From a virus: 64,000 nucleotides of DNA. Numbering within the stretch: position 1 is the stretch's first letter; the number at the start of each line of letters is the position of its first letter. The stretch covers positions 19,577 to 83,576 of IMG/VR virus record IMGVR_UViG_3300048999_000173; one strand, given 5' to 3'. A program made the position numbers and the translations under genes. Shown in pieces: positions 2,364-58,008 of this stretch. The notes beneath the pieces were generated by a model, which made no database searches, was not told the DNA's origin, and worked only from the letters and a program-made list of their open reading frames with translations.

Positions 2364-3557
2364 ATGCTCTCCACAGTGCAGAACGCGGTCGAGCAACTGC
2401 CCGTACAGGCATGGGCCGTCCTGCTCGCCACCCTCACCCTCGTCTTCGGCTACCGCATCGCCCGCAAGACGACGCCGAACACCAAAACCGAGCCCGGCCG
2501 GGACAAGATCGAGCGGCGCACCCTCATCGGCTTCACCGGCATGGGCCTCGTCGCCCTCCTCGGCTTCGGCCTCTCCGCCAACACCAGCATCCGCTTCGCC
2601 GAAAAACGCCTCCACATGGAGGCCCCCTGGACCCTCACCATCGGCCTCGCCCTCGAAGGCATCGTCCTCGGACTCACGCTCTACTCCTGGGCCTTCGACG
2701 ACAAGGGCACCGCCCGCGCCGCCTACCTCCTCGTCCTCGCCCAGGCAGTCGGCGCCATCGAAGTCGTCCGCCAGGAACACGAAGACGCCGGCACCGCCCT
2801 CGTCCGCATCGTCGGCCCCGTCATGCTCGCCTACGGCCTCCACAAGCTCCTCGGGCTGGAAGCCAAGCTGGGGAAGCTGAAGATCACATCGGACGGCATG
2901 ATCGCCCGACTGTGGCGGGACCGCCTGAAGCGGCTCGAGAGCAAGCTCGGCATCGGATCCCGCGGCGCCGACGCCGAAGCCATCTCCCGCAGCAACGCCG
3001 CCGACAAGTTCGTCAACCTCAACTCCGTTGGGAAGCCCGCGCTCATGACCGACCGCATGTACCGGCGCGCGCTCGTGAAGGCCGGCCGGGCCGCCCTCCA
3101 CGGCCTCGACGGCTTCGAGCGGCAGATGGCCGAAGCCGTCCTCGTCGACCGGATCGCCTACGAGAAGGGCATGCAGAAGGGCGGTGACCACTTCGAGGTG
3201 GCCCTCATGCGGGGCGTGCGGTCGAACACCGGATCGCTGGAACTGGACGCGTCCTCTCCGGCTGCACTCGGCTTCCTGACCAGCGCGGCTATCGAAGCCG
3301 CACCCGCGAGCCGAGCCGAAGACGCACCCCAGCCGCACGACGACAAGCCGCAGCCGCGTTCGAACCCCGCCGCGACCGAAGCCGAGCGGAAGGCCCGCGC
3401 GTTCCGCGTCTACGCCGACCTTGGACAGCCCTCCCAGCGCGCCTTCATCAAGGTGTGGCGGGAGCGCGGATTCGGCGAGTCCGACCAGACCGTCCGCGAG
3501 CTCTACAACGAGATGCACGAGGCCTTCGAGAACGCCCGCAAGGGAGACACGGCCTGA
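2364..3557 (+). CDS. Polytopic membrane protein, SpdB/DUF2637-like
   Basis: Start ATG 2364 has GGAAGGA 8 bp upstream; the open frame before it is a shadow. The 397-aa product has about five hydrophobic segments in its first 165 residues (16-31, 53-72, 89-109, 117-136, 145-163) and a hydrophilic, Arg/Ala-rich cytoplasmic tail with a helical C-terminus. This topology resembles the membrane spread proteins (SpdB, DUF2637) that accompany TraB-type translocases on Streptomyces plasmids and ICEs; the family link is from memory, not a search. It is translationally coupled to the next gene (ATGA) and opens the block that ends with the FtsK-like protein. Confidence 0.65.
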   Translation: MLSTVQNAVEQLPVQAWAVLLATLTLVFGYRIARKTTPNTKTEPGRDKIERRTLIGFTGMGLVALLGFGLSANTSIRFAEKRLHMEAPWTLTIGLALEGIVLGLTLYSWAFDDKGTARAAYLLVLAQAVGAIEVVRQEHEDAGTALVRIVGPVMLAYGLHKLLGLEAKLGKLKITSDGMIARLWRDRLKRLESKLGIGSRGADAEAISRSNAADKFVNLNSVGKPALMTDRMYRRALVKAGRAALHGLDGFERQMAEAVLVDRIAYEKGMQKGGDHFEVALMRGVRSNTGSLELDASSPAALGFLTSAAIEAAPASRAEDAPQPHDDKPQPRSNPAATEAERKARAFRVYADLGQPSQRAFIKVWRERGFGESDQTVRELYNEMHEAFENARKGDTA

Positions 3558-4069
3558 TGCGCCAGCCGACTACCGAACAGCGTCCGCAGGCCGCCCCCCG
3601 GCCTGCGGTGCCCCTGCACGTTCCCGCACCGCCGCGATCGGCCCCGGCCCCCCTCCCGGTACCGCCCGCCGCACCCGACTGGCCTTCGCGCTGGCACCTT
3701 CTCCTCCCCGCCGGCGTCCGCAACCAGATGGCCGCGCTCGGGCTGTGGCAGAACCCGGTACCCCTGTGCCCCTCCCTGCACCTCGAGCAGACCCTCGCCG
3801 TCCTCGAACGCTACGGCTGGGCCCGCAGCCTCGACTTTTCCCCCACCGGCCGCATGTGCATCCGCGGCTCCCAAACCCTCCTCGAGCGCACCGGGCACGT
3901 CACCCCCGCCGCGCGCGCGAGGGCCGTCGACTTCATGCAGCAAACCCTCCAGGAACACGGCTACCACCAGCCGTTCTTCGCCTGGAACGACCACCAGGAA
4001 CGCACCCTCACCCACGTCCGCAACCTGATCCTCACCTCCGCCCATGCCGCCCGATCCAACGGAGAATGA
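3557..4069 (+). CDS. DUF6197-like protein (170 aa)
   Basis: The ATG overlaps the previous stop. A proline-rich N-terminus (residues 1-45) leads to a globular part with LERYGWARSLDFSPTGRMCI, a pattern I associate with the DUF6197 family, common in actinobacterial phages and mobile elements and of unknown biochemistry. The rest is helical and ends near the GGAG that serves the following gene. There is no membrane segment. It probably works with the membrane proteins around it, but nothing in the sequence defines an activity. Confidence 0.6.
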   Translation: MRQPTTEQRPQAAPRPAVPLHVPAPPRSAPAPLPVPPAAPDWPSRWHLLLPAGVRNQMAALGLWQNPVPLCPSLHLEQTLAVLERYGWARSLDFSPTGRMCIRGSQTLLERTGHVTPAARARAVDFMQQTLQEHGYHQPFFAWNDHQERTLTHVRNLILTSAHAARSNGE

Positions 4070-4071
4070 CC

Positions 4072-4782
4072 ATGAACGAGTACAACGACCCCAACGCCGA
4101 CTTCAACGGCATCATCAACAACGCGTTCACCCCCAACCCGGCCACAAACCCGCAGGTCACACCCGGGCAGACCTACACCAGCCCGGCCGGCTTCTACACC
4201 GACACCCACACCGGCACGCACGGCCCCTACGGCCCGCCGCCCGCCCACCAGGCCCGCCCCGTCAAGACCGGCCTCACCCCCCGCGGGAAGGCCGCCCTCG
4301 CTATCGCCGCGACCATCTGCGCCGGCGGCGGCCTCCTCGGGTGGCAGCACTACGCCGCCGCCCAGGCGGCCAACCAGGTCAAGGCCCAGGAACTGCGGAT
4401 CGAGCAGCAGAAGCTCGCCATCGAGCAGCAGAAAGCCCTCGACAAGGCCACGCAGACCGCGCAGAAGACCCAGAGTGCGGCCGACGCGAACCGGCAGAAG
4501 AAGATCGACGCCTGTGTGCAGGCCAACCGCGGCCTGGTCGGCAAGCAGCTCGGCGCGACCCTCTCCTCCGTCATCCAGGACTGCCAGACCCAGTACCCGG
4601 CCACCGCCGGGACCGGCGACATGCAGGAGGCGGCGACGTCCAGCACCACCGGCGGCAGCGGAAACGCCACCGACATCCTCCTCGTCGGAGGTGCCGCCCT
4701 CGCCCTCGGTGTCGGATTCGCCGTCAGGCGCGCCACCCGCCCCGCACCGGCCCCCGTCTACACCGGATACCCCACCCACTGA
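4072..4782 (+). CDS. Bitopic membrane protein with coiled coil (236 aa)
   Basis: ATG 4072 is chosen because GGAG at 4061-4064 gives it good spacing; ATG 4066, which overlaps the previous stop, is the alternative. The N-terminal 65 residues are Pro/Thr/Gly-rich, followed by a membrane segment (KAALAIAATICAGGGLLGW). Next comes a Gln/Lys/Ala coiled coil and a pair of Cys residues (DACVQ and DCQTQ), which could form a disulfide outside. A second hydrophobic segment near the C-terminus (DILLVGGAALALGVGF) is followed by Arg residues. It looks like a cell-envelope component of the transfer module; no named family recognised. Confidence 0.6.
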   Translation: MNEYNDPNADFNGIINNAFTPNPATNPQVTPGQTYTSPAGFYTDTHTGTHGPYGPPPAHQARPVKTGLTPRGKAALAIAATICAGGGLLGWQHYAAAQAANQVKAQELRIEQQKLAIEQQKALDKATQTAQKTQSAADANRQKKIDACVQANRGLVGKQLGATLSSVIQDCQTQYPATAGTGDMQEAATSSTTGGSGNATDILLVGGAALALGVGFAVRRATRPAPAPVYTGYPTH

Positions 4783-19476: not shown

Positions 19477-19862
19477 CGACCCCACCAGAGCCGGCCGCCC
19501 ACGGCGTACGGATCGACGCGCAGCCCGGCGACGCCACCGTCACCATCGACGGCACCCCGCTGCCGCGCGGTCAGCTCACCGGATATGTCCTGCAGCACGA
19601 CATCCATCAGGCCCTGCCGTCGCTGATCCTGCACACCCGCCAGCCCGAATCCGTGCTGTTCGAAGGCCTCGCCACGGTCGCCGTAGCCGTCGACCAGAGC
19701 GACGCCACGGAGATGATGGTGCAGTTCCTGCAGGGCATCGACCCGGCGGCGCTCCAGCGGGTCGCTATGGACCGGGACGACCTGGACGACGGCAAGACCG
19801 GCGTCACGGAGGCCATCCTGCGGCAGTTGGTCGACTGGGTGCAGGGACAGGGTGGTTCCTGA
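19473..19862 (+). CDS. Connector-region protein (129 aa)
   Basis: Coupled at both ends. The N-terminal half alternates strands (GVRIDAQPGDATVTIDG) and the C-terminal half is helical and acidic, ending IDPAALQRVAMDRDDLDDG and LVDWVQGQGG. Such genes between capsid and tail terminator usually encode head-completion or tail-attachment parts, but this one is not assigned. Confidence 0.55.
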   Translation: MTTPPEPAAHGVRIDAQPGDATVTIDGTPLPRGQLTGYVLQHDIHQALPSLILHTRQPESVLFEGLATVAVAVDQSDATEMMVQFLQGIDPAALQRVAMDRDDLDDGKTGVTEAILRQLVDWVQGQGGS

Positions 19863-54098: not shown

Positions 54099-54116
54099 GG
54101 TTTACCGCGGTAAACC
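54099..54116. promoter_or_regulatory. 18-bp perfect palindrome
   Basis: GGTTTACCGCGGTAAACC, with no central spacer, lies in the 74-bp gap between the DciA-like gene and the next gene. A dimeric repressor or a partition/replication protein could bind it. Confidence 0.6.
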
Positions 54117-54140: not shown

Positions 54141-54632
54141 ATGCCCCAGCAGCCTCGCCGCTTCCACCTCCAACGCGATCACGACGTAACCGGCGTATCC
54201 GGCACCGGCCGCGTCGCCGACGGCATCGCGTGGTCCGACGGAACCGTCTCCGTCCGCTGGCTCGGAGACCGCCCCAGCACTGTCTTCTGGGACGACCTGG
54301 CTCACGCCGTCCACGTCCACGGACACGGCGGCCACACACGCATCGTGTGGGACGACCCCGAGCTGCCCACCCAGGACATGAACTGCCCTCACTGCCCCGA
54401 CGGTCATACCCTGCCCGACAGCGGCTCCCAGCCGTGGTCCGTATACGTCAGCAGCGAGCGAGACGGCGACGGACAACCCACCACGATCATCGTCGCCCGA
54501 TCAGCTGGAGCACACGTCGCAGAGTCCGATGTCGAGTGGATCCGAAGGCGCCTCAACGGACCCGACCACAACCGACCCGCCCCTGCTATGCCCACGCAGG
54601 GACCGCGCACGCTCCTCAACCGCGGCGGCTGA
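54141..54632 (+). CDS. Conserved hypothetical protein of actinobacteria (163 aa)
   Basis: ATG 54141 with AAGGAGA upstream. The pattern RRFHLQRDHDVTGVSGTGRV, ADGIAWSDGTVSVRWLGDRP and HVHGHGGHTRIVWDD is one I recall from many Streptomyces genomes and phages, function unknown; it looks like a small SH3-type beta-barrel. A CPHC pair (MNCPHCPDG) lies in the middle. It follows the 18-bp palindrome. Confidence 0.6.
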   Translation: MPQQPRRFHLQRDHDVTGVSGTGRVADGIAWSDGTVSVRWLGDRPSTVFWDDLAHAVHVHGHGGHTRIVWDDPELPTQDMNCPHCPDGHTLPDSGSQPWSVYVSSERDGDGQPTTIIVARSAGAHVAESDVEWIRRRLNGPDHNRPAPAMPTQGPRTLLNRGG

Positions 54633-54716: not shown

Positions 54717-54917
54717 ATGCCCGACGTCGCCACGGCCACCCAACCCACCATGTGCCTCCTCCACGGCGACTTCCACGTCATGGAGCAAGCCTGCTGGAGC
54801 ACCGCCCTCGACTGGCAGTTCGCCCACACCCACCTCGAAGGCGCCGCCGCCCGCGACGCCTACCTCACCGAAGTGGAACGGCAGATGCTCAACAACCTGA
54901 TCCGGAGCAGCCGATGA
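54717..54917 (+). CDS. Small hypothetical protein (66 aa)
   Basis: ATG 54717 follows ACGGAG; the earlier open frame is not used. The product starts MPDVATATQPTMCLLHGDFH and ends in a helix (YLTEVERQMLNNLIRSSR). Its stop overlaps the next ATG. No family. Confidence 0.5.
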   Translation: MPDVATATQPTMCLLHGDFHVMEQACWSTALDWQFAHTHLEGAAARDAYLTEVERQMLNNLIRSSR

Positions 54918-55075
54918 CGACCACAACGCCGTCGGCCCGCCCGCGCACCCAGACCCCCGCGCTGCCGGTCCGGCCCCGGCCACTGTGGGAGCGAGACCGG
55001 CTGTTCCTGGAGCCCGACTTGCCCGAGAGGCTGGACGTCACGGAGGACGAAGAGGATGCCGAGGACGGGTGGTGA
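54914..55075 (+). CDS. Small Pro/Arg-rich protein ending at the parS-like site (53 aa)
   Basis: ATG 54914 overlaps the previous stop (ATGA). The product is Pro/Arg-rich at first and acidic at the end (VTEDEEDAEDGW). Its stop codon lies inside the first 23-bp palindrome, which ties the gene physically to the partition site. Function unknown. Confidence 0.5.
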   Translation: MTTTTPSARPRTQTPALPVRPRPLWERDRLFLEPDLPERLDVTEDEEDAEDGW

Positions 55076-55090
55076 CCAATGGTCACCACC
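55068..55090. promoter_or_regulatory. parS: parS-like palindrome 1
   Basis: GGTGGTGACC-AAT-GGTCACCACC, 10-bp perfect arms around three bases. A second copy is 44 bp away and the parB/parA genes start downstream on the other strand, the normal setting for a centromere. Confidence 0.65.
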
Positions 55091-55111
55091 TTCGGGTCAG
55101 ATAGACGACAA

Positions 55112-55134
55112 GGTGGTGACCATTGGTCACCACC
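55112..55134. promoter_or_regulatory. parS: parS-like palindrome 2
   Basis: GGTGGTGACC-ATT-GGTCACCACC, identical arms to copy 1 with an inverted centre; two further base pairs (AA/TT) extend it to 12-bp arms at 55110-55136. It lies 32 bp beyond the end of parB. Confidence 0.65.
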
Positions 55135-55166
55135 TTGAGGCATCGGGCCGCGAGGGCAGGTGGGAG

Positions 55167-56045
55167 TTACCCCAGGCCGCCTGCCAGCTCCTCGATCAGC
55201 TCACGCACAGCGCTCTCCAGCTGCTCAGCCTCCCGTCGCGCCCGGGCTGGATCCCGCTCCGCCAGCTCACGGATCCGCGCGACCGCCCGCAGTGACTCAC
55301 TGACCGACACTGCCGTCTTTCGTGTCGGCTTTGCCTCGGACGGCCCGGACACCTCCTTTGGAGGGGCGTAACCGAGGAAGTTCGCCGCCTGCATCAGCGC
55401 CGTGTCCGTGACGTTGCCGTGCCGGGCCGCTTCCAGCCACGTCTCACGGACCGGGTCCACGCCGTGGGTGTCGAGTATCGGGACCAGGACCCGCAGGGGA
55501 CGTTCCTTCAGCTCCTGGGTGGTGATGTCCTCGAGGACCTGAGCGACCGGAGTCACCCGGATGATGTTGTTCGCCTGGTGCTTTTTGATGCCGAACCGGG
55601 CTTCGGCGAGATCCCCGAACGTGTCGTGCCCTGCGACCTTGTGGAGTTCCTCTTCCTTCATCGCCCGCAGCCGCAGACCCAGGCCGATCAGCCTCTGCTG
55701 GTCGGCACGTTCGTGGTTGGCGCGGGCCGCGTACTGAACGGCGAGAATGCCGCGGGAGTAGAACTCCAGCCGCTCGGACGGATCTGCACTGTCCGGCTCG
55801 GTGAATTCCGGCATCGGCAGGTAGCCGGCCGCCGCGCGCGCAGGCGCCACGGGCGCATCGTCGGCCGCCCGTTCAGCCTGCACCGGGAGCGGCGCTGCCA
55901 CCGGCTGAACGGGGGGTGCCGATGCAGCGGCCTGCTGCTCTCGCCGGGCGCGCTCCGCCTCTTCCCACTTCCGCAGTTCGTCCTCGCGGGATGTGTCCCC
56001 GCCCTGGCCGACCACCGGGATGACGGGTGGTTCCTTCCTGCTCAC
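55167..56045 (-). CDS. parB: ParB-like partition (centromere-binding) protein (292 aa)
   Basis: Its ATG (56045) overlaps the ParA stop, the standard parAB coupling. A flexible N-terminus (1-75) leads to a helical region with an HTH-like part (FGDLAEARFGIKKHQANNII) and a coiled C-terminus (ESLRAVARIRELAERDPARA). The CTPase (ParB/Srx) motif GERR is not visible, so this is not a canonical chromosomal ParB but a plasmid-type adaptor. Two palindromes lie just past its end. The role is inferred mostly from context. Confidence 0.7.
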   Translation of the reverse strand: MSRKEPPVIPVVGQGGDTSREDELRKWEEAERARREQQAAASAPPVQPVAAPLPVQAERAADDAPVAPARAAAGYLPMPEFTEPDSADPSERLEFYSRGILAVQYAARANHERADQQRLIGLGLRLRAMKEEELHKVAGHDTFGDLAEARFGIKKHQANNIIRVTPVAQVLEDITTQELKERPLRVLVPILDTHGVDPVRETWLEAARHGNVTDTALMQAANFLGYAPPKEVSGPSEAKPTRKTAVSVSESLRAVARIRELAERDPARARREAEQLESAVRELIEELAGGLG

Positions 56046-57199
56046 GCCGCCAGCTCCTTCGCCAGGGACCGCATCACCTGCGCCTGACCAGAGTCAGGAG
56101 CGTGCTCAAGGAGAGGGATCTGGTAGTCGGACGACTCCCGCCCCTCCACCGCGTCCTTCAGCGTGGCCAGCACGCCCGGAGTAGTGAGACCGTTCCAGCC
56201 GTCGTAGAAGCTGCGGGTACCGACACCCTTGCGCGCGTCGTAGGCGTTGACGACGAACCCGAGCTGGTCGACCACCGCTCCGGTCAGCCGGGAGTGCGTA
56301 CCGATCTGCTCGTTCAGCATCTCGTACGCGTCGAACGAGGACCGGTCGGACCAGACAGGGATGAGGATCCCGGAGTGGTCGATCAGCTCGCCGGGACGGC
56401 GCTGCACGTAGTTGATGGCGAGGTCTATGGCCAGACCCAGGTTCGGCGGCCCGTCCAGGACGATGACGTCGTAGCCCTCCTCGAGCGGGGCGATCGCACG
56501 CGCCAGGCAGGTGTCCCGGCCGACCTGGAGCAGGGCAAGCTTGGCGTCCATGAGGAAGGCGTCCTTGGACGCGGGCAGGATGTGCAGGCGGCCCCCGAAC
56601 CGTTCCTGGGGGAGCGCAACCAGGGAGCGGGCCAGGTGCTTGTCCGCCTCACCCAGCATGTGCTCGAGGAGACTGTTGGCGCCCTTGGGCAGGCCTGGGA
56701 TCTGGAGGCGGCTGGTGAGGTGGCCCTGCGGGTCGTAGTCGACGAGGAGGACACGCTGGCCGGCTTCCGCCATCGCCTGGGCGAGCCCGGCCGCGACGAA
56801 CGTCTTGCCGACGCCGCCCTTCTGATTGCCCACCAGGATCCGCTTCACCGGCTGCGACACCAGCCGCTGGGAGGGCGAGGGGTGCAACTGCAGCCAGTGG
56901 ACGATGGCCTGCGCCATGCCCTGCACCTTGGTGATCCCGCGGAGTTCGCAGTCCTGCGTGAACCGTCCGGGCAGCCCGGGGGCGAGGAACACCCCCCACG
57001 ACTTCGAACCCCTGGTGTCGATTGCCTCGAAGACCGTGTCGCCGGTGTCGGTCTCGAGCCACAGGGCAACTGCGTTGGATGCGGCGTCCTGCATGTTCAG
57101 TCCGTGCTCGGCAGCCCGGATGCGGAGGTCTCTGCGTAGCTCCGGGGTCAGATTGACGAGCAGTTTTTCGCGCGCATCGTCGGCGCTCGGGTTGGTCAT
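56042..57199 (-). CDS. parA: ParA ATPase with N-terminal ribbon-helix-helix-like domain (385 aa)
   Basis: ATG 57199 is preferred over the upstream frame start. Residues 10-50 (LLVNLTPELRRDLRIRAAE, LNMQDAASNAVALWLE) read as a ribbon-helix-helix DNA-binding domain. The ATPase has the deviant Walker A KGGVGKT (127-133), A' DYDPQGHL (154-161) and Walker B VIVLDGPP. ParA moves plasmid copies apart using DNA-bound ATP dimers. The RHH part could let the protein autoregulate its operon. No good SD is visible, and a TAATTT lies 9-14 bp upstream, hinting at a leaderless mRNA. Confidence 0.85.
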   Translation of the reverse strand: MTNPSADDAREKLLVNLTPELRRDLRIRAAEHGLNMQDAASNAVALWLETDTGDTVFEAIDTRGSKSWGVFLAPGLPGRFTQDCELRGITKVQGMAQAIVHWLQLHPSPSQRLVSQPVKRILVGNQKGGVGKTFVAAGLAQAMAEAGQRVLLVDYDPQGHLTSRLQIPGLPKGANSLLEHMLGEADKHLARSLVALPQERFGGRLHILPASKDAFLMDAKLALLQVGRDTCLARAIAPLEEGYDVIVLDGPPNLGLAIDLAINYVQRRPGELIDHSGILIPVWSDRSSFDAYEMLNEQIGTHSRLTGAVVDQLGFVVNAYDARKGVGTRSFYDGWNGLTTPGVLATLKDAVEGRESSDYQIPLLEHAPDSGQAQVMRSLAKELAA

Positions 57200-58008
57200 A
57201 GCGAGCAAATTACCAGGCGATCTCCGTGGAGAGGGGAAGGCGGGCACCGAACTGCTCACGGCTCCGCCCCAAAGCGGCTGAACACCCCTTGTGAACTGCG
57301 GGTTTAGACCTGTGGCACCGCATGGTCAACTTCTGCCGGTAACGGGCGGGTTGCCGGGGTTTCTGCGTCACCCACCCGAGTGATCTATCACCGCATCCCC
57401 TTCCGCACCCCACCTGTCTGTGGGTTGGCTGAGAGTCGCCGCCTCCCCCTGGGGAACGGCGGCCGTACGGCCGGGACCGGCGCGTGCGTGGATCGCAGCC
57501 CATCACGGGCCCTCCCGGCCCACGCGCCACCGCCCGAATCCGCACAGGGGACTCCCCCGTGGTGAGTTCCCGGACTACAATCACCGTCATCTGGCGGGCA
57601 TGCCCGTGAGGTCTCGAGGAGCCCCTTCCGGCCCCGGGGCGGCGTGTTGTCGGCAAGCTCCGCGCCCCTCTGGTCGTCCGGTGAGGGGCTGCCTTCATTC
57701 CGGGCCCCGGCACACCATCCGGAACGCGTGCAACTTCCTGGCCTGATACTCACGGGGTTCTTACGGATAGCGTGTACTTCGGCCACAACCAGTGACGCTT
57801 TGGCCATATGCATATCGAATGCGCGTCAGTAGGGCGTGAATACATGGCCTTGCCTTACCCACTGACACTCAGGAGTGTCACAGTGGCTTTCCCGCACCCA
57901 CGGACTGGCAGCCGGAGGGCGCGGGGGGAGACCCAGGACCGGCCCCAACCGCCCCCGGGTCATACGAGGCCCCTTCCCACTTTCTGCCGGAGGAGCGGAG
58001 ACGCCCCT
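57200..58008. other. Long non-coding stretch with repeats, candidate origin or control region
   Basis: No gene with convincing start, codon use or RBS is seen in 809 bp. It contains CGGCCGTACGGCCG (palindrome, 57460-57473), CCCCTC/GAGGGG stem near 57663-57686, an AT-rich segment with ATATGCATAT (57804-57813), and an 8-bp inverted repeat TGACACTC-AG-GAGTGTCA (57863-57880). It separates the parAB operon from a rightward gene, so it must hold divergent promoters and may include the replication origin. Confidence 0.5.
57863..57880. promoter_or_regulatory. Inverted repeat TGACACTC-AG-GAGTGTCA
   Basis: Perfect 8-bp arms around AG, flanked by CCAC and CAGTGG. It stands 129 bp ahead of the rightward gene at 58009 and has the form of a repressor operator. 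Confidence 0.5.

Follow-up and report, generated by a model that had tools for sequence, protein, structure and literature searches.

Partition of the Streptomyces coelicolor plasmid SCP2 involves ParT, a ParB-like protein without a CTPase domain that was described in 2025; it loads at an inverted repeat of 18 bp, slides independently of CTP, and activates ParA (PMC12260392). The layout of this protein comprises a disordered basic N terminus, a long helix alpha-2, a helix-turn-helix (HTH) domain, a linker, and C-terminal helices. Clamp closure is proposed to be triggered by a clash that depends on the distance between half-sites, and CTP-independent ParT loading has been demonstrated for this one plasmid (PMC12260392). 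The parT gene of SCP2 holds a sole perfect 18-bp inverted repeat, TGTCTCCAATTGGAGACA (TGTCTCC-AATT-GGAGACA), which is probably the mapped parS; the assignment is ours, and the text of that paper gives no letters. Two canonical systems are also relevant. The sopABC locus of the F plasmid (type Ia ParABS) has its centromere downstream of both genes, built from short inverted repeats every ~43 bp (PMC9178275). The dual ParABS system of SCP1, a Streptomyces plasmid, is strictly specific and has a par operon surrounded by several parS sites that are identical inverted repeats (PMC13245405).

The locus analyzed here resembles SCP2 ParATS in encoding a CTPase-less ParB-like protein with the same predicted helix layout and parA directly upstream (PMC12260392), and the CC-N4-GG core of the SCP2 repeat corresponds to the variant with a 4-bp center found here. 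It differs in having two sites downstream of the gene rather than one 18-bp site inside parT, a half-site gap that varies from 2 to 4 bp, a conserved central GTC-N5-GAC box, a ribbon-helix-helix (RHH)-like extension of ParA, phage-plasmid carriers, and a ParT that is only remotely similar. The downstream position is shared with sopABC, as is approximately the repeat period (44 bp here and 41 bp in one relative, L017); however, SopB is a canonical ParB, and F has twelve 43-bp repeats versus two sites here (PMC9178275). The ParBs of SCP1 bind and hydrolyze CTP, whereas the 292-amino-acid (aa) protein here lacks that domain (PMC13245405). The kind of system represented by ParATS is already known; what is new here is the two-site ParT-type centromere proposed below, with the central box as its newest part.

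A partition operon and a palindrome pair on a phage-plasmid

The window is a 64,000-nucleotide stretch (positions 19,577 to 83,576) of IMG/VR record IMGVR_UViG_3300048999_000173. The record carries a terminase large subunit, a portal, a major head protein, and ParA; it also encodes a single-strand annealing protein and gives a weak match for replication initiation. The window belongs to a phage-plasmid, with virion genes and plasmid maintenance genes (parA-parT) on one replicon, and its relatives are circular plasmid records of 88 to 94 kb that are also listed as viruses in IMG/VR. The features of the par region are as follows.

54914-55075, + strand: small convergent ORF of 53 aa, with its stop inside palindrome 1; small CDSs are annotated at the equivalent place in relatives
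55068-55090, no strand: palindrome 1, parS-like; exact match, with arms invariant in 16 distinct elements
55096-55106, no strand: central symmetric box GTC-AGATA-GAC, midway between the palindromes, dyad at 55101; kept in all 16 elements
55112-55134 (perfect arms 55109-55137, CAAGG...CCTTG), no strand: palindrome 2, parS-like, inverted copy with center ATT; same scans
55068-55134, no strand: entire putative centromere unit (parS-box-parS), lying between the convergent genes; spacer of 23 nt between the 9-bp arms fixed in all two-copy relatives
55167-56045, - strand: parT-like gene, 292 aa, GTG start, CTPase-less ParB-like and predicted to be centromere binding; AlphaFold2 layout and profile match to SCP2 ParT
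56042-57199, - strand: parA, encoding a Walker-type partition ATPase of 385 aa when read from the conserved ATG at 57199 (AAA_31, 1.8e-24; PHROG ParA-like, 2.3e-32)
57197-57216, - strand: conserved CTGGTAATTTGCTCGC(C/T)ATG marking the parA start; varies little across all close relatives, with upstream DNA not conserved

The palindromes sit between convergent genes, namely, the 53-aa ORF (+), which is outside the partition machine, and the 292-aa parT-like gene (-). The original prediction described twin 23-bp palindromes with AAT and ATT centers, 44 bp apart and with one overlapping a stop codon, as the centromere of a neighboring parB. The description is exact: palindrome 1 reads GGTGGTGACC-AAT-GGTCACCACC around 55079, palindrome 2 has its midpoint at 55123, and both are perfect odd palindromes with a single base at the axis. 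Palindrome 2 is palindrome 1 inverted, as AAT is the reverse complement of ATT. The TGA stop of the 53-aa ORF indeed falls within palindrome 1, but this overlap is incidental, as in several relatives the stop falls just outside. A coding artefact was rejected on the same ground, together with the intergenic location of the sites in relatives. Allowing up to 3 mismatches, the window yielded 2 palindrome matches, both at these sites, compared to 0 in 100 dinucleotide shuffles, and no same-arm palindrome pair within 150 bp arose in 40 shuffled windows. A scan for more copies had also been proposed; the full 83,576-bp record contains no third copy.

In the window and its relatives, parA lies directly upstream of parT and overlaps it, by 4 bp in the window. 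For parA, the start listed at 57259 is probably incorrect; we place the start at 57199 because the relatives share CTGGTAATTTGCTCGCCATG there. The conserved motif at 57197-57216 is a likely promoter (-10 TAATTT) of a leaderless parA mRNA. In L017, CTGGTAATTTGC is present three times upstream of parA.

The 292-aa protein gave no match to partition families in Pfam or NCBIfam, and no ParBc or other Pfam family was detected in 15 members of its family. Solved structures gave no match by sequence search and no significant match in fold searches with full and core models. The AlphaFold2 model (mean pLDDT, 72.6; pTM, 0.37) is all-helical and lacks the ParB CTPase fold. It comprises a disordered basic N terminus, an alpha-1 helix (residues 18 to 41), a 43-residue alpha-2 (89 to 131), an HTH domain (143 to 224), a linker, and C-terminal helices (250 to 264 and 266 to 290), the last of which are predicted dimerization helices as in the ParT layout. 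The N terminus, where pLDDT is low, carries SRK; in SCP2 ParT, the ParA-binding N-terminal peptide carries SRR. Alignment of the family profile with SCP2 ParT using hhalign gave a probability of 92.9% (E value, 3.8e-7) over the HTH domain, the family HMM scored SCP2 ParT at 36 bits, and BLASTP retrieved 27% identity over 56 aa. By domain searches, the product of the neighboring "parB" is not a canonical ParB and is best described as a CTPase-less, remote homolog of SCP2 ParT. The original prediction also regarded the palindrome as unlike the chromosomal parS and of distinct specificity, in agreement with the finding that chromosomal-type parS (TGTTTCACGTGAAACA, up to 3 mismatches) has 0 matches within the window. 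A canonical type I ParABS system was rejected because both the CTPase domain and a chromosomal-type parS are absent.

Conservation of the palindromes and their change with the protein

Protein searches retrieved 8 IMG/VR loci, 10 plasmid records, and 5 genome contigs, which are partly the same elements; the INPHARED phage collection contained no relative. In every close relative (~60 to 77% identical), parA-parT is followed by palindromes, and in 16 distinct elements (Streptomyces phage-plasmids, plasmids, and contigs), two palindromes lie directly downstream of parT. Over these elements, the arms (GTGGTGACC / GGTCACCAC) contain 1 substitution in 576 positions, compared to 287 departures from the majority in 576 positions (about 50%) of flanking DNA; mean nucleotide identity of the parT genes is 70%. 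The same arrangement occurs on large plasmids of 238 to 312 kb, for which the par region was compared. In a seventeenth element, L023, the palindromes are fused without a spacer (AGGTGGTGACCAAATGGTGGTGACCATTTGGTCACCACCT, L023:4954-4993), either by a natural deletion or through assembly collapse. One parT homolog (L015, CDS 3746-4663) is labeled "valine--tRNA ligase" in CP109520.1, an evident misannotation.

The motif itself was rarely found elsewhere. An IMG/VR-wide search allowing gaps of 2 to 4 returned 10 stretches, 8 at this operon and 2 as single copies in apparently coding DNA. In 199 Streptomyces genomes, apart from the operon carrier, the motif turned up as 3 isolated single copies and never as a pair, and in the whole genomes or records of carriers, matches fell at par sites only. 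A single-protein search of 150 genomes retrieved one distant relative in addition to the known carrier genome. On these searches, the palindrome motif appears to be nearly exclusive to parA-parT loci.

More divergent ParT clades (34 to 43% identity) have other palindromes, again directly downstream of parT: GGATACC-GC-GGTATCC in three copies with a 41-bp period (L017); GGAAGACC-CGG-GGTCTTCC in five copies, one of them upstream of parA (L018); and GGGTACC-CCG-GGTACCC in about 22 copies (L019) or 3 copies (L025). ACC-N-GGT is common to all near-clade palindromes. All aligned carriers of the GTGGTGACC arm have KKHQANN as their predicted recognition helix, and each other group differs (KKDYANK, GGDYANK, and GKNYANK); the site changes follow the ParT tree. 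This co-change of site and protein constitutes strong sequence evidence, which is not statistical because there are few independent clades. The L019 copies (GGGTACCCCGGGTACCC) fill 1.4 kb downstream of parT (L019:4809-6197), a candidate centromere array of unusual size.

Among the most distant parA-parT operons the picture is mixed, so the rule that the palindrome follows parT is established for the near clades only. Five of these operons (L047, L048, L049, L051, and L020) have their own palindromes upstream of parA, inside parT, or on both sides, and none were seen in L044, L045, L046, L050, L052, and L053. In L051 (pFRL1), parA-parT is flanked on both sides (1373-1396 and 3166-3191) by GTTTCCCAAA(T/C)TTGGGAAAC, a candidate parS of another subfamily.

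The palindromes as candidate centromeres

Taken as parS, the palindromes would be the loading sites of a ParA-ParT-parS system that stabilizes a low-copy Streptomyces phage-plasmid. We assign this reading a probability of roughly 0.88 because the arms are invariant, the position after the operon is constant, the palindrome changes clade by clade, and the motif is almost confined to these loci. These observations, like the sites themselves and the missing CTPase domain, come directly from the sequences, and together they strongly favor the centromere role originally predicted. Counting against a ParT centromere are the remote homology to SCP2 ParT and the lack of a solved match in fold searches; half-site gaps of 2, 3, or 4 bp, which are unusual for one rigid dimer site; the convergent-gene location, which also suits a terminator; and the position of SCP2 parS inside parT rather than downstream.

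That location raises the question of a bidirectional terminator, in which conserved hairpins between the convergent genes would stop RNA polymerase from both sides. The predicted RNA folds (-17.7 kcal/mol for each palindrome and -56.6 for the pair) would fit, yet no U-run follows the hairpins and no terminator-like site was found. Compensatory arm changes were never seen, the single change in 576 positions being unpaired. Complementarity between the two centers holds in only 8 of the 16 elements; the long hairpin formed by pairing of both copies is therefore not kept and was rejected. Furthermore, the palindromes differ among ParT clades, and neither ACC-N-GGT nor the fixed GTC-N5-GAC box would be needed in a terminator. 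We regard a terminator as very unlikely.

ParA and ParB proteins often autoregulate, and paired inverted repeats are typical of operators, so the sites might instead serve ParT or another DNA-binding protein as an autorepressor. However, their position is at two gene 3' ends rather than a promoter, the conserved motif at the parA start does not include the palindrome, and the roughly 22 copies in L019 are centromere-like. An operator in place of a centromere is about as improbable as a terminator; an operator role in addition to the centromere is possible. Least probable of all is a site for replication initiation, packaging, or recombination that merely hitchhikes beside parT, for although this phage-plasmid has its own replication and packaging genes, the arrangement recurs on the 238- to 312-kb plasmids and the palindrome tracks the ParT clade.

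For the centromere reading, a mechanism modeled on SCP2 can be proposed, all of whose steps, from DNA binding to plasmid stability, are inferred. A ParT-like dimer would bind the half-sites (TGACC / GGTCA core) through its HTH middle domain, and the N-terminal gate (long helix alpha-2) would close without CTP, as in SCP2 ParT. The closed protein would then slide onto neighboring DNA, freeing the site for the next dimer. The resulting local ParT cluster could stimulate the ParA ATPase through the basic disordered N-terminal peptide, and a ParA gradient would move the plasmid. Read in this manner, the family extends the ParT-type system to phage-plasmids and offers many pairs of protein and site that occur in nature. 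Its four site specificities, accompanied by matching changes in the recognition helix, would make a site-recognition code testable, and half-site gaps that naturally measure 2, 3, or 4 bp, in some cases on one plasmid, would do the same for the question of spacing.

A variable center, a fixed spacer, and a central box

The palindrome center varies in both sequence and length (2, 3, and 4 bp in 2, 14, and 16 cases, respectively), and its length differs within one element in L004, L009, L015, and L016. Because of this variability, the center does not appear to be the recognized part. The spacer, on the other hand, is invariant in length, and its invariant positions (CTT-N3-GTC-N5-GAC-N3-AAG) are symmetric about the midpoint. 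The pattern GGT-N12-GTC-N5-GAC-N12-ACC is found in 16/16 elements; L017 and L018, which have other palindromes, carry an N11/N11 version that is one base shorter per side. A loose box pattern occurs 4 times in 83 kb of distant loci, and all 4 occurrences are at the L017 and L018 par sites. In L019 and L025, the box, as read by eye, is at best partly kept. The two sites and the midway box form one symmetric unit, with GTC-N5-GAC probably acting as a second recognition element. Two kinds of recognition element within one centromere unit are known from P1 parS, with its A and B boxes, although P1 ParB has a ParB domain and P1 parS differs in sequence and geometry from the unit here.

One candidate reader of the box is the ParA N terminus (window 56850-57199), which places ~115 residues ahead of the ATPase domain and shows weak RHH matches below the curated cutoff. 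The box-bearing clades have this extension and SCP2 ParA does not, a comparison confounded by descent. A tripartite centromere can tentatively be imagined, though we consider it somewhat less than an even bet: two ParT sites with a free half-site gap of 2 to 4 bp, plus a distance-fixed box read by a second protein surface, e.g., the RHH-like N-terminal domain of ParA or the C-domain of ParT. If this were true, the fixed geometry would lie between the inner half-sites, across the box, and the CTP-independent ParT clamp might close through an architecture that differs from the single-palindrome clash proposed for SCP2.

Another perfect palindrome, GGTTTACCGCGGTAAACC, lies at window 54099-54116, just upstream of the ORF at 54141, and is probably the operator of another regulator. 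TTTACCGCGGTAAA recurs once near the par region in L008, L009, and L022, and the related TATACCGCGGTATA is present in L005 and L024.
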